This document shows positions 2,772 to 10,636 of a stretch of 10,636 bases of DNA, in pieces. The notes under the pieces are model-generated. The model was not told the DNA's origin. It worked only from the letters and a program-made list of their open reading frames with translations, and made no database searches. The translations under genes and the position numbers were made by a program. This DNA is from Clostridiales bacterium. Its GTDB lineage: Bacteria > Bacillota > Clostridia > Peptostreptococcales > T1SED10-28. The DNA lies in the NCBI GenBank assembly GCA_007134725.1, contig SLKF01000268.1:1-10636 (forward strand). Reading direction: 5' to 3'. Positions within the stretch are counted from its first letter, which is position 1, and every line of letters starts with the position of its first letter.

Positions 2772-4718
2772 GTGATAAAAACTTCCCCAGGAGAGAATAG
2801 CAATAAAAATTTCAAAGGATCCCTTAAGGGAAAGTGGATCCCTTTATTCCTGATGGTCTGGGGAGTTCTATTGGGAGGATACGCCTATGGAGAAAATGAG
2901 GAGATTACCCTTCAGCTTCGCTGGGATCATCAGTTTCAATTTGCCGGTTACTATGCGGCCCTGTGGGAGGGCTATTATGAAGATGTGGGATTGAATGTTC
3001 ACATTTTAAGCGGATTCGATGACGCGGGAGAGGTGATTGCAGCCCCAAAAGAAGTGGGAGAAGGCCGTGCGGATTTTGGAATTGGGGCCTCGGATATCTT
3101 AACCTATCAGGAAAATGGATACGAGTTTGCTGTAGTAGCTTCGATTTTTCAACGAAGTCCTGTGGAGTTTTATATGCTCGAAGACACTCCTTATCAGAGC
3201 TTAGTGGATCTTTTGGACCTGGAGGTAGCTCGACGAGAGAATGATTTGTTGGACATAGAACTACAGGCAATGCTGGTGCAGGAGGGGATTGATCCGGATT
3301 TGATTCCTCGGATTTCCGGAGATTATGACTTTTCCATTGAAGATCTTACCAGTGGTCGCTTCGACGTCATTCCCGGTTATTTGGGAACCATTCCTTACCA
3401 AGGAGAGCTAAGAGAGATAAAGCTTCAGACCCTAAAGCCCATAGATTATGGAATTGATTTTTACGGAGACAGCATTTTTACCAATGCAGCATACGCCCTG
3501 TCCCATCCGGAACGGGTAAATGATTTTAAAGAAGCCAGCCTACAGGGATGGGAATATGCCTTGGAAAATCCCGAGGAAATAATTGAAAAGATGCTCTTAC
3601 ACTTTCATGAACCGGAAGGGATGTCCTTGGAGGAGTATCGTGCCTTTAATACATTTCAAAAAGAACAGGTATTGGAATATACCCTTTATCCAATCGTTTC
3701 CCTGGGAAACATCAATCCGTATCGCTGGGAGGAAATGGAAAGAATCCTGGTAGAACTTCAAGTGATTGAAGAAAGTAGGGATTTGAATAACTTTATCTTC
3801 GACTATGGTCAAATTATCCAAGGGCAGCGGGAACGAATCATCACCATATTAATCGCCATTTCCATGGGACTGGGTATGGCCACGGTTTTATTTATCGTGT
3901 ATTATGTGGCTTCCAAGAAAACCATGGGAAAACTCCAGGTCCTGGTGGCGGAGGCCCTTAGAGAAAATCAGAAGCAGGAGGGGATTATCCTCTATCAGTC
4001 CCGGCTGGCGGCTATGGGAGAGATGATCGGACATATTGCCCACCAATGGAGACAACCCCTAAACCAGCTGAATCTGATGATTACCAATGTGGAAGAATCC
4101 TATCAGGATCAGGATCTTCAAAAAGAAGACATGGAGAGTTTCACGAAACGATCGCAAAAACTGATTTATAAAATGTCCGAAACCATTGATGATTTCCGAT
4201 ACTTTTTCAAACCTCAAAAGGAAAAGGAAGTCTTTGATGTACGGGATCTCATTCACACCACATTAGAGCTGTTAAAGGATTCCATGAACTTAAAAGATAT
4301 TTCTGTTGAAATAAATGAACAGACTGAAGAGGGTGAAAAACACCGGGAGCAAGCTTTCAAAGTGAAAGGCTATGGAAACTATTTTTCTCAAGGGATCTTC
4401 AATGTGGTTCATAACGCCATGGATGCTGTGGAAAAAGAAGAAAAAACCAATCGCCGAATCTTCATTGAGGTTTTGGATTGTCATAAAACCATAGCAATTA
4501 AAATTAGAGACCGGGGAAAGGGTATCCCAATAGAAAACCTGCCACGAATTTTTGATCTGTATTTTACCACAAAAGACAAAGAACATGGGACGGGCTTGGG
4601 TCTTTATATTACCAGAATTATTGTGGAGGAACATCTGTCGGGAACCATCAAGGCAGAGAATCTAGAAAAAGGGTTTCAGGTGATGGTAGAAATCCCCAAG
4701 GAGGGTAAAAGTCTATGA
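2772..4718 (+). CDS. Sensor histidine kinase with an extracytoplasmic NMT1/THI5-like solute-binding sensor
   Basis: A 648-aa membrane kinase. Residues 21-40 form a signal-like hydrophobic segment. Residues about 43-345 resemble NMT1/THI5-type periplasmic binding proteins, beginning with LQLRWDHQFQFAGYYAA and GLNV. A single transmembrane helix at about 357-380 follows, then a short coil, a HisKA-type dimerisation domain with the phospho-acceptor H424 in GHIAHQWRQPLN, and an HATPase domain with N box (NVVHNAMDA, 544-552), G1 (DRGKGIP, 580-586), F box (FDLYFTTK) and G2 (GTGLGLY, 606-612). All catalytic boxes look intact. The GTG start is set by TAGGAGG at 2758-2764, 7 nt away. The stop overlaps the regulator's start by 4 nt (ATGA), so the pair is co-translated. 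Family ligands include pyrimidine thiamine precursors, alkanesulfonates and nitrate-like solutes; the ligand here is unknown. The downstream purine-type operon makes a nucleobase or degradation product a reasonable guess. Confidence 0.9.
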   Translation: MIKTSPGENSNKNFKGSLKGKWIPLFLMVWGVLLGGYAYGENEEITLQLRWDHQFQFAGYYAALWEGYYEDVGLNVHILSGFDDAGEVIAAPKEVGEGRADFGIGASDILTYQENGYEFAVVASIFQRSPVEFYMLEDTPYQSLVDLLDLEVARRENDLLDIELQAMLVQEGIDPDLIPRISGDYDFSIEDLTSGRFDVIPGYLGTIPYQGELREIKLQTLKPIDYGIDFYGDSIFTNAAYALSHPERVNDFKEASLQGWEYALENPEEIIEKMLLHFHEPEGMSLEEYRAFNTFQKEQVLEYTLYPIVSLGNINPYRWEEMERILVELQVIEESRDLNNFIFDYGQIIQGQRERIITILIAISMGLGMATVLFIVYYVASKKTMGKLQVLVAEALRENQKQEGIILYQSRLAAMGEMIGHIAHQWRQPLNQLNLMITNVEESYQDQDLQKEDMESFTKRSQKLIYKMSETIDDFRYFFKPQKEKEVFDVRDLIHTTLELLKDSMNLKDISVEINEQTEEGEKHREQAFKVKGYGNYFSQGIFNVVHNAMDAVEKEEKTNRRIFIEVLDCHKTIAIKIRDRGKGIPIENLPRIFDLYFTTKDKEHGTGLGLYITRIIVEEHLSGTIKAENLEKGFQVMVEIPKEGKSL

Positions 4719-5500
4719 ATCAGCAGAATGATTTGATTTTGCAGAACTTATCCGTACTCTATGTGGAGGACGAGGAAGATACCCGCATAGAACTGGCTCG
4801 CTATTTGCGGCGACGGGTAGGGAAACTATATACCGTGGGAAACGGGTTGGAAGGGTTGGAAAAATTCCGGGAGAATCCTATAGACATGATCATTACCGAC
4901 CTTAAAATGCCCTTAATGGATGGGTTGGACATGGTAAGAGAAGTTCGGAAAATAGACGTCAACGTTCCGGTGATCATTACATCAGCCCTTTCGGATAGTG
5001 AGAGGATCTTAAGTGCCATGGACCTTGAGGTGGTGAAATATGTGGTCAAACCCATAAACCCCAAGGAATTGGTGGCGGTTTTATCGGATATTGGGAAAAA
5101 AGTTTTGCAAGATCAACAAAAAGAACTGCTTAGAGAAAATACCTGGGCGACAAAAGATGAAAAAATGGCTCTGGAAAAAGAGATGGAAAGGAAATGTGCG
5201 GCAATTTTAAAAAGTCGAACCGGCAAAGGGCCAAAAAAAATACAAGCCTTCATTCAAGGGGAGGCGCTTTCCATAGAGATGAGTGAAATGCTTACCCCAA
5301 TGGAAAAGCAATTATTAGGAAATCCTAAACATACCACCCTGGTTACCTATTTTCGAAGATCCTTTTATGAAGAAATAAAAAATGAACTGGAAAGGAGTTG
5401 CTCTGAGGTCCTGGGAAGATCTTGCAGCTTTTGGGACTTGGATCAAAATACGAAGGAAAATTGGGAATCCCTTCGCTTCAAAATTGGCAATCCCCATTGA
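4715..5500 (+). CDS. Response regulator with receiver domain and DUF2294 (YbcI)-like C-terminal domain
   Basis: A 261-aa partner of the upstream kinase, overlapping it by 4 nt. Residues about 11-128 are a CheY-like receiver: acidic cluster E18-D19-E20, phospho-acceptor D62 in IITDLKMPLMDG, the T89/S90 switch region and K112 in the VVKPIN loop. A helical linker (about 129-155) leads to a C-terminal region (about 155-258) with GKGPKKIQAFIQGEALSI and a later LTPMEKQLL, which resemble the GRGPK and LTPAE motifs I know from DUF2294/YbcI-like proteins. No helix-turn-helix, ANTAR, GGDEF, EAL or HD output is visible. The domain assignment is from motif memory and needs a profile search; its biochemical role is unknown. 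If it controls the neighbouring permease operon it must do so without a recognisable DNA-binding domain. I see no strong terminator after the gene. Confidence 0.85.
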   Translation: MNQQNDLILQNLSVLYVEDEEDTRIELARYLRRRVGKLYTVGNGLEGLEKFRENPIDMIITDLKMPLMDGLDMVREVRKIDVNVPVIITSALSDSERILSAMDLEVVKYVVKPINPKELVAVLSDIGKKVLQDQQKELLRENTWATKDEKMALEKEMERKCAAILKSRTGKGPKKIQAFIQGEALSIEMSEMLTPMEKQLLGNPKHTTLVTYFRRSFYEEIKNELERSCSEVLGRSCSFWDLDQNTKENWESLRFKIGNPH

Positions 5501-5525
5501 ATATTCCAAATATTTTGCTAAGGGC

Positions 5526-5555
5526 TTTACGATGTATCAAAAAATATGATACAAT
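5526..5555 (+). promoter_or_regulatory. Promoter of the permease/hydroxylase operon
   Basis: TACAAT at 5550-5555 with an upstream TG at 5547-5548 forms an extended -10 (TGnTACAAT). TTTACG at 5526-5531 is a four-of-six -35 at 18-nt spacing. Start predicted near 5562, giving a leader of about 197 nt before the permease ATG. Confidence 0.6.
5533..5553. promoter_or_regulatory. Inverted repeat over the spacer and -10, candidate operator
   Basis: TGTATCA (5533-5539) and TGATACA (5547-5553) are perfect 7-bp inverted arms separated by 7 bases, and the right arm covers most of the -10. A protein bound here would block RNA polymerase. A second, overlapping TGATA-N6-TATCA repeat lies at 5547-5562. I do not recognise the cognate regulator. 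Confidence 0.5.
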
Positions 5556-5649
5556 ATTATCAGAATAGAAAAGAAGTGGAATACTGACTTTTCTATAAAC
5601 TATATGAATTAGTAAATCAGTAAATAATAGAATAACCGCTGAACAAGAG

Positions 5650-5677
5650 TTAAAGAAAATCCTAGATTTTGCTTTAA
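5650..5677 (+). promoter_or_regulatory. Leader hairpin directly before the attenuator
   Basis: TTAAAGAAAATC (5650-5661) pairs with GATTTT and CTTTAA (5665-5677) around a CTA loop, giving 12 bp with one bulged G at 5671. It abuts and slightly overlaps the foot of the terminator stem. It may be a pausing or alternative-fold element; no known riboswitch aptamer is recognised. Confidence 0.5.
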
Positions 5678-5721
5678 AAGGTCAGCACGAAAGAAGAGAT
5701 TCTTTTGTGCTGACCTTTTTT
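5676..5721 (+). terminator. Strong intrinsic terminator in the permease leader, likely attenuator
   Basis: The stem pairs 5676-5695 with 5700-5719, about 20 bp with a single G-U and a GAGA tetraloop. Its core is AAGGTCAGCAC with GTGCTGACCTT, followed by a T run ending at 5721. It ends only about 20 bases before the permease ribosome binding site and lies downstream of the proposed promoter at 5526-5555. It could simply end the upstream kinase/regulator transcript, but its position in the leader suits attenuation. Confidence 0.9.
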
Positions 5722-5758
5722 ATGGAAAAAACCCAAATATCCAAGGAGGCGTAAAAAA

Positions 5759-7150
5759 ATGGCAGAAAGAAGCGAAAAAGTTCGAAGTCGGTCGGTTTTT
5801 CAGTTGGAAGGGATGCCCAGTATCGGTAGAGCATTTCCCTTAGGGATGCAACATGTTTTAGCAATGATTGTGGGGAATATCACCCCTGCGATCATCATTG
5901 CGGGGATCGTGGGACTGGGTACCGGGGACGCCACGCTCTTGGTACAAAGTGCCATGTTTATTGCAGGAATTGCAACATTAATTCAGCTTTATCCCATGGC
6001 AATAGGAAGTTCTCCTTACCGCATCGGGTCCGGTTTACCGGTAATTATGGGGGTCAGCTTTGCCTACATTCCTCCCTTAATTGCCATTGGCAGTCAATAC
6101 GGAATAGCAGCAATACTGGGAGCCCAAATGATTGGTGGTATAGTGGCCATTATTGTGGGTATATTTATAAAACCGATTCGAAAATATTTCCCCCCAATGG
6201 TGGCGGGAACCGTGGTCTTTACCATTGGACTGTCGCTGTATCCCGTAGCCGTAAACTATATGGCCGGGGGCATAGGACAAGCGGGATATGGGTCTTACAC
6301 CAATTGGTTAGTGGCCATTGTTACTCTGTTAGTGGTGCTCTTTTGCAATCAGTTTGCAAAAGGCTATGCAAAACTGGCGTCGATTTTAGTCGGAATTTTA
6401 GCAGGATATTTCCTTGCCATACCCTTGAATCTTGTGGATTTTTCTCCAATTGCAGAAGCTTCCTGGTTCGCACTGCCCAGACCCCTGCACTTTGGCATTG
6501 AATTTTACCCATCAGCGATTTTAACCATGGCGATTATGTATGTGGTAAACTCGGTGCAAGCCGTAGGAGATCTTTCTGCCACAACCGTCGGGGGCATGGG
6601 CCGGGAAATCACCGACGAAGAGTTATCCGGCGGTATTGTCGGGAATGGTGTGGCCAGTATTATCGCCTCGTTTTTTGGAGGACTTCCCACGGCTACTTAT
6701 AGTCAGAATGTGGGAATTGTAAGTATGACGAAAGTCATCAGTAAGTTTGTATTGGCCTTGGCCGCGGGAGTGATTTTACTTGCAGGATTTGTGCCCAAGG
6801 TAGGCGCATTAATGACAACGATACCCCATAGTGTTCTTGGTGGAGCCACCATTACGGTGTTCGCCCTGATTACCATGACAGGAATTCGACTGATCATACA
6901 GGACGAGTTATCCATTCGAAACATCACCATTGTGGGATTGGCTGTGGCTTTGGGCGTCGGGATCAGTCAAGTGCCGGAAGCCTTATCATTATTTCCCAAC
7001 TGGTTTATGATGATTTTCGGAAGCTCTGCGGTGGTAATTTCCGCCATCGTTGTTTTCAGCTTGAATATTATCTTACCGAAAAAGTCCATTGAAGATGAAA
7101 GATTAGAGCGAGAAAAAATGGAAAAAGAAATGGAAGTGGAGGGTTCTTAA
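5759..7150 (+). CDS. NCS2-family nucleobase permease (xanthine/uracil type)
   Basis: A 463-aa polytopic membrane protein predicted to import a purine or related nucleobase by cation symport. The NCS2/NAT signature is present as QNVGIVSMTK at 316-325, and the TM1 histidine region reads PLGMQHVLAM (H32). Repeated long hydrophobic segments fit the 14-helix fold of the family, and the length is normal. In TM8 the segment reads VQAVGD (Q267), where XanQ and UraA homologues, as I recall them, carry a substrate-binding glutamate. The hydrophilic C-terminal tail (441-463) is rich in Glu and Lys. The ATG is set by AAGGAGG at 5743-5749. It is followed with zero spacing by the FAD subunit gene, linking uptake to oxidation. 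Xanthine is the most likely substrate given the neighbours, but uracil, urate or another purine is possible. Confidence 0.93.
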   Translation: MAERSEKVRSRSVFQLEGMPSIGRAFPLGMQHVLAMIVGNITPAIIIAGIVGLGTGDATLLVQSAMFIAGIATLIQLYPMAIGSSPYRIGSGLPVIMGVSFAYIPPLIAIGSQYGIAAILGAQMIGGIVAIIVGIFIKPIRKYFPPMVAGTVVFTIGLSLYPVAVNYMAGGIGQAGYGSYTNWLVAIVTLLVVLFCNQFAKGYAKLASILVGILAGYFLAIPLNLVDFSPIAEASWFALPRPLHFGIEFYPSAILTMAIMYVVNSVQAVGDLSATTVGGMGREITDEELSGGIVGNGVASIIASFFGGLPTATYSQNVGIVSMTKVISKFVLALAAGVILLAGFVPKVGALMTTIPHSVLGGATITVFALITMTGIRLIIQDELSIRNITIVGLAVALGVGISQVPEALSLFPNWFMMIFGSSAVVISAIVVFSLNIILPKKSIEDERLEREKMEKEMEVEGS

Positions 7151-7954
7151 ATGATCACCATACGAAAGTATTTTTTCCCTGAAACCATAGAAGAAGCCTA
7201 CGAGACGCTTATGGAAAAAAAGAGCAATGCCTTAATCGGAGGCGGGGCCTATTTAAAGCTGGGCTCCAAGGCCATGGGTACCGCAGTGGATCTATCCAAG
7301 GTGGGACTGGACTATATTAGGGAAGAGGAAAGCGCTTTTGAAATTGGAGCCATGACCACCTTTTCAACGGTTATGCTTCATGAAGGGCTAAACAAACACT
7401 TTGACAACCTTTTTCAACGGGCCATCGAAGATATTGTGGGGATGCAGCTGAAAAACATGGTTACCATCGGCGCAACGATTTATTCCCGGTATGGTTTTTC
7501 CGACTTTTTAACCGCACTCTTAGTTACCAATACAAAGGTTAAGCTCTTTAATGCGGGATGGATTTCTTTGAATGCTTTTCTGGAAAATGGTCCGGAAAAA
7601 CGGGATATTTTAGAGAAAATTCGAATTGAAAAGACCAATGGGTTGTATCGTTTTCAGGATTTAAGAGGGTCCAGCAGCGATTATTCGATTATCAATCTGG
7701 CCTTATCAAAAGAAAAAGATGCCTACCGGATAGCGGTAGGGGCAAGACCGGGACGGGCAAAACTTGCGGTGAAAACAATGGATTTTTTGCAGGAGCGGGA
7801 AGTGACAGCAGAAAACATGGAAAAAGCAGGAGCAATTTTATCCGAAGAAGTGGTTTTCGGCACCAACGGCAGAGGTTCAAAGGAATACCGAAAGGCCATG
7901 GCCAAGGTATTATTGAAAAAAGCCTTACAGGAGGTATCCATCCATGAAAATTAA
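7151..7954 (+). CDS. Molybdenum hydroxylase FAD-binding subunit (xanthine dehydrogenase family)
   Basis: Middle-chain subunit that passes electrons from the iron-sulfur subunit to FAD and then to the acceptor. The 267-aa protein begins with a typical YFFPETIEEAYETL segment, followed by the FAD pyrophosphate loop LIGGGAYLKLG at 28-38 (family usual: aGGTdl), a second FAD motif VTIGATIYSRYGFSD at 104-118 (usual TIGGN...P.SD), and a C-terminal CO-dehydrogenase flavoprotein-like domain from about 165. It is shorter than the roughly 290-aa Proteobacterial subunit and resembles the compact clostridial form. GGAGGG at 7138-7143, inside the permease 3' end, gives a 7-nt spacing to the ATG that directly follows the permease stop. 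The gene overlaps the 2Fe-2S gene by 11 nt, indicating a tightly coupled complex. Confidence 0.9.
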   Translation: MITIRKYFFPETIEEAYETLMEKKSNALIGGGAYLKLGSKAMGTAVDLSKVGLDYIREEESAFEIGAMTTFSTVMLHEGLNKHFDNLFQRAIEDIVGMQLKNMVTIGATIYSRYGFSDFLTALLVTNTKVKLFNAGWISLNAFLENGPEKRDILEKIRIEKTNGLYRFQDLRGSSSDYSIINLALSKEKDAYRIAVGARPGRAKLAVKTMDFLQEREVTAENMEKAGAILSEEVVFGTNGRGSKEYRKAMAKVLLKKALQEVSIHEN

Positions 7955-8411
7955 CCTAACCATCAACGGGAAAGAAAAAGAAATCGAGATTGCTCCTGAT
8001 GACTATTTATCCGAGGTCCTGAGAAGAGAAGGTCTTTTAGGCGTAAAAAAAGGCTGTGACACCGAGTCCTGTGGCCTGTGTACCGTTCATTTGGACGATG
8101 TTGCCGTACTTTCCTGTGGAACCCTGGCGGCGAAAGCCCATGGAAAGGCCATAACCACCATCGAAGGGGTAGAGAAAAAGGCGGAAAAAATCCGATATGA
8201 GCTGGGGAAAAGAGGGGTAGACCAATGCGGATACTGCGCCCCGGGAACCATTATGAGTATCCTGTATTTAGAGAAAGTAGTCAAAGATCCCACAGAAGAG
8301 GATATCAATCGATATCTAAAGGGGAATTTTTGCCGCTGTTCCGGATATGTGGGACAGTTGGAAGCCATAAAATCTTATCTGGAGGGTCAAAAACATGAAG
8401 TATGTGAATGA
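7944..8411 (+). CDS. Molybdenum hydroxylase 2Fe-2S subunit (xanthine dehydrogenase family)
   Basis: Small iron-sulfur subunit that carries electrons from the molybdenum centre to FAD. The 155-aa protein has both expected clusters. The N-terminal plant-ferredoxin-type cluster has C38, C43, C46 and C58 (GCDTESCGLCTV...SCG). The C-terminal helical-domain cluster has C95, C98, C130 and C132 (QCGYCAPG and GNFCRCSGY). All eight ligands are present; QCGYCAPG differs slightly from the common QCGFCTPG. The start is set by AGGAGG at 7929-7934, nine bases before the ATG and inside the preceding gene. Its last codons overlap the start of the molybdenum subunit by 17 nt, so all three subunits should be made in step. 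Length is typical for a stand-alone subunit. Confidence 0.95.
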   Translation: MKINLTINGKEKEIEIAPDDYLSEVLRREGLLGVKKGCDTESCGLCTVHLDDVAVLSCGTLAAKAHGKAITTIEGVEKKAEKIRYELGKRGVDQCGYCAPGTIMSILYLEKVVKDPTEEDINRYLKGNFCRCSGYVGQLEAIKSYLEGQKHEVCE

Positions 8412-10636
8412 TTCCATCAAAAAGATCGATAGCGATGCCCTGCTAAAGGGAAAAGGGGTATATACCGATGATTTAGCCCCAAAGGATGCACTGTGTATTA
8501 AAGTGGTTCGAAGCCCCCATGCCTTTGCAAAAATAATCAATATTGATGATCGATTAACCCGAAAGGTAGCCGGGGTGGAGATGGTTATTACCCATAAAGA
8601 TGTAAAAAAGATCCCATTTACAAGGGCGGGACAGTGTTATCCGGAACTTTCCCCCTACGATAAATTCATACTGGATGAATACGTACGGCATGTGGGGGAC
8701 GATGTGGCCATTGTTGTTGCGGAGAATCAGAAATCCGCAGAAATGGGGGCCAAACGACTAAAAGTCACCTACCAAGTATTGGATCCCTTACTGGATTTCA
8801 CGAAAGCCGAGGGGCATACAACTTTGGTACATCCGGAAGAGGAGAACTTTATTCCCGTGGATTTTGTGGGCTATGATCGAGAGCAAAACCTGGCCTGTAA
8901 CATTGGTTTTGAAGTAGGAGATATTAAGGAAGTGCTGAAAGATTCGGAAGTGGTGATACAAAAAACCTATGAAAGTCAGGCCCAGGCCCAAGCCATGATG
9001 GAGACCCAACGAGCCTTTAGCTACGAGGATGAGTACGGCCGTTTAGTCGTGGTATCCTCTACCCAAATTCCTTTTCATGTTCGAAGAACCTTAGCCAGAG
9101 CCTTGGACATGCCCATGAGTAAAATCCGGGTGATCAAGCCGAGAATCGGAGGAGGATTTGGCTCCAAGCAAAGCATTCATGCGGAGTTCTATCCCGCCTT
9201 AATTACAAAACTCACCGGAAGACCCAGCAAAATTGTGTACAGTCGGAAGGACGTATTTACCGGAACCACCTCCCGGCATAAAATGAAATTTGATATTACT
9301 CTGGGGGCAAGCAAAGAAGGAAAAATTCTAGGCATCGAGATGAATGCTCTTTCTGATACAGGAGCCTACGGAGAACATGCCAATACCACCGTGGGGGCTG
9401 CAGGAAAAAAAGTGCTGACCCTCTACAATAAGGTGAAGGCCTGCAGTTTTAAGGGAAAAGCCGTATATACCAATAACCTTCCCGGGGGAGCCCTCAGGGG
9501 ATTCGGCGTGACCCAAGGAACCTTTGCCTTGGAATCTGCAGTCAATGAACTGGCAGAAGTTTTAAAGATGGATCCCGTTACCCTTCGGGAAATGAATATG
9601 ATTAATAAAGGAGAAACCACGCCGATTTATAATATCATTACCAAAGGATCCGGTCCGGAGCCGATCTACATGGACAGTTGTGAACTGGAGGCCTGTGTAG
9701 AGAAGGGAAAAGAAATCTTCGGATGGGAAAATCGGAAGAGCCGAATCGCAAAAGAGAAAGACCCGTTAAAGGAAAAAAGAAAAGCTCGGGGCCTAGGCAT
9801 GGCCATCGCACAGCAGGGATCGGGACTGCCCAATATTGATATGGCCGGGGCTACGATAAAACTCAATGACGATGGGTTCTTTACTTTGCTGGTAGGCGCC
9901 ACAGACATTGGTACAGGCAGTGATACCATACTCAGTCAAATCGCTGCGGAGGCACTGGATGTTTCCATGGATCAAATTAATATTCATGCGTCAGATACGG
10001 ACGTGAGTCCCTTTGATAGCGGGGCCTATGCCTCAAGTACCACCTATACTTCCGGAAATGCAGTCATTGAAGCCTGTAAGAAAATGAATGACTTAATAAA
10101 AGAATATGGGGCAAAAGTCTTGGAAGAAGATATGGAGAACATTACTTTTGAAAGGGGACTCATTACCAGCAAAAACGGGAAAGAAATATCCCTGGAAACC
10201 TTTTCCAAGAAAATAACCTACTCTATGGTTCATCAACAGCTAACGGCTACCGGATCCTTTGTGCCTAAAAAAGCCGCCCCCCCTTATATGGCAGGTTTTG
10301 CCGAGGTGGAGGTGGACCTGGACACGGGGAAAGTGGACCTGTTGGACTTTGTAGGAGCCGTGGACTGCGGTACCGCAATCAATCCCATACTGGCCCAGGT
10401 ACAAGCCGAGGGAGGAATTGTTCAGGGAATCGGAATGGCCTTATATGAAGAAGTAAAGGTAAGCCCGAAGGGGAAGTTAAAGTCCAACACTTTTATGGAA
10501 TATAAAATCCCCACGAGAAAAGATATTCACAAGATTCAAATTGAACTGATCGAAGGACACGATGACACGGGACCCTACGGAGCAAAATCCATTGGGGAGG
10601 TAGTCATTAACACCGTGCCACCGGCTATTATGGAAG
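8395..10636 (+). CDS. Molybdenum hydroxylase large (molybdopterin) subunit, xanthine dehydrogenase family, 3' end cut by window
   Basis: Catalytic subunit that should bind the molybdopterin cofactor and hydroxylate a purine-like substrate. The frame stays open from ATG 8395 to the window end (747 codons), so it is truncated by the window and not broken; the family length of roughly 750-780 aa means only a short tail is missing. Visible landmarks are the N-terminal a/b-hammerhead region (about 14-120), the cofactor loops IGGGFGSKQ (251-259), GGALRGFGVTQ (364-374) and DIGTGSDT (504-511), the later DTDVSPFDSGAYASST loop, and GPYGAKSIGE (726-735), whose E735 matches the catalytic glutamate. Q259 occupies the site of bovine XDH Glu802, and no residue is clearly placed at bovine Arg880, so the substrate should not be taken as xanthine from annotation alone. 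GGAGGG at 8381-8386 serves as ribosome binding site. Confidence 0.93.
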   Translation, partial: MKYVNDSIKKIDSDALLKGKGVYTDDLAPKDALCIKVVRSPHAFAKIINIDDRLTRKVAGVEMVITHKDVKKIPFTRAGQCYPELSPYDKFILDEYVRHVGDDVAIVVAENQKSAEMGAKRLKVTYQVLDPLLDFTKAEGHTTLVHPEEENFIPVDFVGYDREQNLACNIGFEVGDIKEVLKDSEVVIQKTYESQAQAQAMMETQRAFSYEDEYGRLVVVSSTQIPFHVRRTLARALDMPMSKIRVIKPRIGGGFGSKQSIHAEFYPALITKLTGRPSKIVYSRKDVFTGTTSRHKMKFDITLGASKEGKILGIEMNALSDTGAYGEHANTTVGAAGKKVLTLYNKVKACSFKGKAVYTNNLPGGALRGFGVTQGTFALESAVNELAEVLKMDPVTLREMNMINKGETTPIYNIITKGSGPEPIYMDSCELEACVEKGKEIFGWENRKSRIAKEKDPLKEKRKARGLGMAIAQQGSGLPNIDMAGATIKLNDDGFFTLLVGATDIGTGSDTILSQIAAEALDVSMDQINIHASDTDVSPFDSGAYASSTTYTSGNAVIEACKKMNDLIKEYGAKVLEEDMENITFERGLITSKNGKEISLETFSKKITYSMVHQQLTATGSFVPKKAAPPYMAGFAEVEVDLDTGKVDLLDFVGAVDCGTAINPILAQVQAEGGIVQGIGMALYEEVKVSPKGKLKSNTFMEYKIPTRKDIHKIQIELIEGHDDTGPYGAKSIGEVVINTVPPAIME

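Follow-up and report, generated by a model that had tools for sequence, protein, structure and literature searches.

The window analysed here is a stretch of 10,636 nucleotides (nt) of contig SLKF01000268.1 from a Clostridiales bacterium, and the genes reported for it all lie on the + strand. A gene for a sensor histidine kinase (2772-4718) overlaps by 4 nt a gene for a response regulator (4715-5500), which is followed by an RNA leader ending in an intrinsic terminator and by an operon for a nucleobase permease and a molybdenum hydroxylase. The regulator joins a receiver domain (REC) to a C-terminal MpsC domain and is referred to as REC-MpsC. An original prediction, made from the letters of the window, had read this arrangement as an NMT1/THI5-type kinase co-translated with a REC-DUF2294-like regulator next to a purine-type catabolic operon, and had suggested an undescribed signalling route for a purine or heterocycle that might act through the leader at 5562-5721. 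The genes, the leader with its exclusive folds, the covariation and the co-occurrence described below, all derived from sequence, suggest that REC-MpsC is probably a phosphorylation-controlled transcription antiterminator acting on the leader RNA, whereas RNA binding by the MpsC domain, the dimer, the activating direction and the ligand are parts of this reading that we infer.

The kinase, the regulator and the leader in the window

Domain assignments were obtained by Pfam scans. In the kinase, residues 54-269 match the NMT1 solute-binding family (PF09084, E 3.8e-36) and residues 540-644 HATPase_c (E 1.1e-17), with a weak HisKA match at residues 415-482 (E 1.8e-4, 22 bits; cut-off 26.9). In the regulator, residues 14-123 match the receiver family PF00072 (E 2.6e-23, 82.7 bits), and residues 150-247 (nt 5162-5455) match positions 2-99 of the 111 positions of the MpsC profile PF10057 (E 5.7e-16), the score of 59 bits being well above the curated cut-off of 23. 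PF10057 is presumably DUF2294 under a newer name. The predicted kinase-regulator pair was thus borne out. The receiver residues E18, D19, D62 and K112 are invariant across 37 aligned sequences, so that the acidic pocket, the phospho-acceptor Asp and the Lys are present.

The output domain was foreseen not to be a textbook one, and this was supported. At E<=1 the Pfam scan of the regulator returned Response_reg, MpsC and two weak domains of unknown function under their cut-offs, and no ANTAR domain. The AlphaFold2 model of the MpsC domain (pLDDT, the predicted local distance difference test score, 95.4) has the order helix-strand-strand-helix-helix-strand-strand. Comparison of the domain with PDB sequences gave nothing in one search and two matches at E 1.1 and 1.5 in another. 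The list from the fold search with the full regulator model was filled by receiver domains, and the search with the MpsC domain model gave no clear match, its best row being a weak one to a DNA translocase domain; the ANTAR fold does not appear in the listed rows of the latter search, an absence that proves nothing. No significant DNA-binding family or fold was found by the Pfam, PDB sequence and fold searches. A G(K/R)GP motif is common to the domain and to the seven stand-alone MpsC relatives printed. The MpsC domain is here proposed as the RNA-binding part of the regulator.

The regulator and permease genes are separated by 258 nt. A promoter-like site read by eye (5526-5555; TTTACG, 18 nt, TACAAT) precedes the leader, and similar hexamers were seen by eye in related leaders. 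Hairpin A (5565-5596) carries an asymmetric internal loop with A opposite GA, and hairpin B (5638-5686), which is antiterminator-like, carries one with A opposite TG. The intrinsic terminator (5676-5721) is a hairpin of about 19 bp with a loop of 4 and a T-run at 5716-5721. Its TCAGC is also used by the lower helix of hairpin B, so that the terminator excludes the lower part of B. Folding of the window leader gave A, together with B if the 3' arm of the terminator was omitted and the terminator if the arm was included; hairpin B and the terminator are thus predicted to be mutually exclusive through common bases.

Conservation of the gene order and of the leader

A protein search with the regulator gave 135 matches, and the first 90 of the 120 listed all carry PF00072 and PF10057. 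An order-wide profile search matched REC-MpsC in 57 of 297 genomes at E<=1e-30; the last three of 79 places were receiver-only and were dropped, leaving 76 places in 56 genomes with full-length REC-MpsC. Outside the window there are 75 places, of which 60 were fetched for comparison and the other 15 were not compared (two of these, L235 and L236, were fetched and not counted), and L181 was dropped as its regulator was missed by the gene caller. A contig search gave 80 related loci with matches mostly over the receiver; L039 (Sporosalibacterium), L040 and L041 (Clostridium ganghwense) were taken from it, L040 being an uncounted copy of L175. The fetched places, the window, L039 and L041 make up the 62 distinct loci compared, which were selected by REC-MpsC, its presence in all of them being by construction. 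A class-wide search at 1e-45 added REC-MpsC in 2 of 291 genomes, both outside the order and neither with a leader beside the REC-MpsC gene. Among plasmids, 1618 records were matched, none reaching 60% identity; 20 of them cover at least 80% of the query.

The survey of genomes for the gene order of the window, which the original prediction had called for, found the succession of kinase, REC-MpsC, permease and the FAD, FeS and Mo subunits of the hydroxylase in 15 of the 62 loci (the window, L157-L168, L198 and L039), which are spread over several families of the taxonomic order. The FeS subunit of L198 was not called by the gene finder, and the 2Fe-2S gene of L162 (11817-12284) is split into two short frames of 76 and 74 amino acids, a frameshift or sequencing error. 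L169 and L170 share this kinase and regulator, the hydroxylase genes lying a few genes downstream, while L212 has a permease upstream and no hydroxylase gene within the stretch. An NMT1 domain was found in all 18 kinases scanned from this purine-type group, these three loci included, and is absent at E<=0.001 from the 34 presumed kinases scanned from 34 of the 44 other loci; dCache_1 is present in 23 of those 34, and HATPase_c matched 25. The sensor domain thus changes with the type of operon, the REC-MpsC output remaining constant, which looks like a general regulator and leader module with exchangeable sensors. Eight of the 62 loci lack a kinase-like neighbour (none within seven genes of REC-MpsC in L190, L193, L203, L208, L187, L204, L206 and L041), and no further neighbour family is present in more than 21 of 62, receiver and kinase clusters being merged in that count.

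Recurrence in 15 of 62 loci and in several families, together with NMT1 in 18 of 18 kinases, indicates from gene content that the association of kinase, regulator, permease and hydroxylase exceeds chance. The suggested tie of the pair to permease and hydroxylase genes therefore stands for the NMT1-kinase pairs, 15 of the 18 lying directly before these genes, L169 and L170 a few genes before the hydroxylase and L212 near a permease, but not for the REC-MpsC family, which is mostly found elsewhere, at citrate, chemotaxis and other operons.

All 15 same-order loci have, between regulator and permease, a leader with an intrinsic terminator, and a promoter-like site by eye; the leader proposed for the window does exist. 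The leader alignments have a conserved core in leaders of low and of higher G+C content alike. Alignment A2 omits L164, whose terminator was missed by the search pattern though visible in its leader, and alignment A5 omits L161, L165, L166, L168 and L198, in which hairpin A was misplaced by MAFFT. In nine leaders, 90.3% of the cells of the A and B structure are paired and 17 of 29 pairs are changed on both sides, amounting to 36 both-side cells against 12.3 in shuffles (0/500); sliding the structure by 1-3 columns leaves no more than 6 both-side pairs. The first helix of hairpin A contributes 9 of 12 pairs changed on both sides. Hairpin B alone, in 14 leaders, has 14 of 17 such pairs and 33 both-side cells against 11.0 in shuffles (0/500), slid versions reaching at most 7 pairs. 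In the terminator, pairing is 93.8% and 5 pairs covary; the evidence for it is pairing and not covariation, since slid versions reach 6. The leader is, very probably, a real and conserved attenuator.

In the window, the first gene behind the leader encodes an NCS2 nucleobase permease (5759-7150), followed by the FAD (7151-7954), 2Fe-2S (7944-8411) and Mo-binding (8395-10636, cut by the window end) subunits of the molybdenum hydroxylase, all identified by profile matches and in the direction of the kinase, as had been predicted. The permease scored 412.8 bits against NCBIfam pbuX, slightly below the cut-off of 414.15, and the NCBIfam matches of the hydroxylase subunits are all under the equivalog cut-offs; the substrate is therefore named no further than 'purine-type'. 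Upstream of the kinase lie genes for a PAS-GGDEF protein, a diguanylate cyclase (307-1254), and a fused MsrAB (1386-2516). Such genes are rare in the printed neighbour lists of the other 14 same-order loci, where GGDEF-type neighbours were seen in L161 and L166 and an MsrAB neighbour in L167.

Related leaders at citrate and chemotaxis operons

The other loci with leaders were grouped under class names coined in this analysis, members that were not scanned being assigned by gene size, gene order and leader type. Class II loci have a chemoreceptor downstream (L175 scanned), class III loci citrate lyase and a 2HCT carrier (L190 and L194 scanned) and TTT-type loci citrate lyase and a TctCBA transporter (L178, L219 and L226 scanned). 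By eye, a leader was counted in 52 of the 62 loci (15 same-order, 2, 12 class II, 9 class III and 14 TTT-type), A and B not having been checked singly in each; the two are L169 and L170, whose leader, with a terminator, stands before the FAD gene. The leader is less clear in six loci (L041, which is nevertheless hit by model R1 below, L204, L205, L209, L211 and L213), and none was seen in the gaps read by eye at L206, L207, L212 and L215.

In classes II and III, a leader with A and B lies behind REC-MpsC and has a terminator except in L195, whose leader (9379-9509) shows none before the next gene. The A and B structure is 95.6% paired in 10 class II leaders with clear covariation (7 of 32 pairs; 1/500 shuffles) and 97.0% paired in 8 class III leaders with weak covariation (4 of 39 pairs; 8/500 shuffles). 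The gene behind the class II leader of L175 (6382-8376) encodes a chemoreceptor, a methyl-accepting chemotaxis protein with dCache_1; because of this position, REC-MpsC may steer chemotaxis too. In the TTT-type loci, a leader with terminator was seen by eye in 14 of 14 cases, where the citrate lyase operon begins, before its first gene, and not behind the regulator. The operon leads to the kinase and REC-MpsC genes, which come after those for citrate lyase and TctCBA and share their orientation (L180 with L217 is an example), and the leader could therefore exert positive feedback on the pair. In L178, a gene on the opposite strand intervenes between the citrate lyase/TctCBA genes and the pair.

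The position of these leaders bears on the possibility that the 5676-5721 hairpin merely ends the kinase-regulator transcript and that the operon is controlled at the DNA level, by REC-MpsC or another factor. The TTT-type leaders stand at the beginning of an operon and a long way from the regulator gene, the conservation of A and B is accompanied by covariation, and the promoter-like site upstream of the hairpin would place the terminator within the operon's own leader. A terminator between two units would be ordinary, and the best weak fold row was a DNA translocase domain; with no significant DNA-binding match found, this alternative as a whole is considered unlikely.

Covariance models were used to examine how the leaders are related. 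R1, built from purine-type leaders only, was run with R2 and R3 over the 297 genomes of the order with stricter filters, 10-12 candidates being scored per genome in the rows shown, so that weak leaders elsewhere could be missed. At E<=0.01, R1 hit 14 genomes, R2 12 and R3 10, the union of 29 lying entirely among the 56 genomes with full-length REC-MpsC, and no hit fell in the 240 genomes without a REC-MpsC profile match. Six of the 14 genomes hit by R1 contributed no row to it; in five (G062, G086, G032, G089 and G095) the hit lies on the contig and strand of the regulator within 13 kb, and in G049 on another contig. Counted per locus at E<=0.05, the models detect 41 of 62; 27 of these had contributed rows to a model, and the remaining 14 had contributed none. 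R1 hits the class III citrate leaders of L193 (2.5e-4) and L194 (9.3e-4), the C. ganghwense locus L041 (1.8e-4) and eight sites directly before citrate lyase/TctCBA operons (E 2.3e-4 to 0.048; gene content scanned in L219 and L226, the L220 site being on another contig of its genome); a ninth match among the TTT-type loci, in L218, has E 1.1 and is located elsewhere. Conversely, R3 hits purine-type leaders (L157 at 5.2e-4, the window at 0.011); it also weakly matched the opposite strand of its own leaders, which is to be expected with hairpins. As R1 scores class III and TTT-type leaders and R3 purine-type ones, the leaders of different operons are, on these scores, related. R2 also found two extra class II leaders in genome G026, off the contig of the regulator (L221, 253-399, G026:C67; L222, 3898-4039, G026:C39, before a gene for a short-chain dehydrogenase of 246 amino acids), possibly a regulon in trans.

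Many of the A and B hairpins share an element, an asymmetric internal loop that sits above a G-C pair and has one A on one side and AG or GA on the other. A strict descriptor of it matched ahead of 8 of 32 leader terminators and, within these loci, ahead of 11 of the 876 further terminators. A descriptor relaxed by two more dinucleotides matched 17 of 35 A regions, 15 of 35 B regions and both in 4 of 35 (0.6%, 1.0% and 0.0% in shuffles). The element is enriched without being universal: hairpin B of class II and hairpin A of class III deviate from it. As the strict descriptor catches 8 of 32, no single short motif defines all leader classes.

Riboswitches typically show hairpins followed by an overlapping terminator, and the purine-type operon of the window would also suit a metabolite-sensing riboswitch, or a leader bound by some other unlinked factor, with REC-MpsC acting elsewhere. 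The kinship of leaders across operons speaks against a ligand-specific riboswitch, one ligand being unlikely to serve citrate and chemotaxis operons as well, and a purine riboswitch was set aside because R1 also hits citrate operons. A search of 4227 Rfam families at the gathering score matched no leader in the window or in L158, L165, L039, L171, L175, L190 and L194; at low stringency, positions 5480-5780 gave 21 matches, all far under the gathering scores. Taken with the 0 of 240 genomes without REC-MpsC that were hit, this leaves such a leader with a low probability. The sole Rfam hit in those seven loci is an unrelated lysine riboswitch elsewhere in L158 (634-816, - strand, 117.7 bits).

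There is thus good reason to regard REC-MpsC as the factor acting on the leader, and action through the leader, which the original prediction had raised as a possibility, is rendered probable by the exclusive folds, the covariation and the co-occurrence with REC-MpsC. The undescribed route for a purine or heterocycle was upheld in part, the operon link being conserved; the route is not purine-specific, because the family mostly stands at citrate, chemotaxis and other operons.

A proposed antitermination route and known systems

In the proposed route, the kinase would sense a small molecule through its NMT1-type domain and phosphorylate the receiver at D62. Activated REC-MpsC, probably as a dimer, would bind the nascent leader at A and B through its MpsC domain and hold hairpin B; as B and the terminator share bases, the terminator could then not form and the operon would be read. 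Without the signal, the terminator would end transcription at about 5721. With other sensors and diverged leaders, the same module would govern the citrate and chemotaxis operons of related Clostridia. If true, this would give DUF2294/MpsC, a domain of unknown role, its first function and add to the RNA-binding response regulators a second type of output domain, one that has an RNA element of its own. It would also provide covariance models with which the REC-MpsC regulon can be found, and account for the way in which purine-type, citrate and chemotaxis operons may be controlled in a group of Clostridia. Among open-licence PMC papers, the parts of the literature retrieved held no report of a REC-MpsC system or of these leaders.

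The stand-alone MpsC/YbcI proteins are close relatives of the output domain, as judged from the PF10057 score and the G(K/R)GP motif; unlike them, the domain is here fused to a receiver, mostly beside a kinase and linked to leaders. The Pfam family is named after a Na+-translocating membrane potential-generating system, and a role in membrane energetics, with REC-MpsC acting by contact with a protein such as a transporter or RNA polymerase, would follow the name. Nothing in the analysis points to a Na+ or bicarbonate system, and the recurring partner is the leader and not a membrane system. In the portions consulted of a study on Staphylococcus aureus, moreover, mpsC was judged not to be a functional part of mpsAB, its deletion caused no growth defect and it is not collocated with mpsAB homologs outside staphylococci (PMC6689103). 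Action by protein contact is hence the least probable of the alternatives. It is quite possible, though put forward tentatively, that MpsC/DUF2294 is generally RNA-binding, that REC-MpsC is a second, ANTAR-independent antiterminator response regulator and that the stand-alone MpsC/YbcI proteins of Bacillus subtilis and staphylococci are RNA-binding regulators named after an operon that they do not serve.

The leaders share with Rfam riboswitches and leader motifs a 5' position and alternative terminator and antiterminator folds, and those scanned differ from the known riboswitches in having no match at the gathering score. A close parallel is provided by the ANTAR regulators. In the literature found, as far as the retrieved parts go, RNA-binding response regulators are described with ANTAR domains only; those such as EutV combine a receiver with an RNA-binding domain and recognise two hairpins, the second within the terminator (PMC3369931, PMC8934654, in the parts consulted). 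As in the EutV/EutW type described there, a kinase and a receiver-containing regulator adjoin a catabolic operon, and the leader of the window has two hairpins of which the second is predicted to exclude an intrinsic terminator. Unlike in that type, the output domain is MpsC with no ANTAR match in Pfam, and in place of hexaloops with conserved A1 and G4 the loops vary in length and letters between and within classes, the conserved RNA letters lying in asymmetric internal loops and stems. The best reading of this comparison is that REC-MpsC would work like the ANTAR regulators, but through an output domain unrelated to theirs and on an RNA element of another kind.
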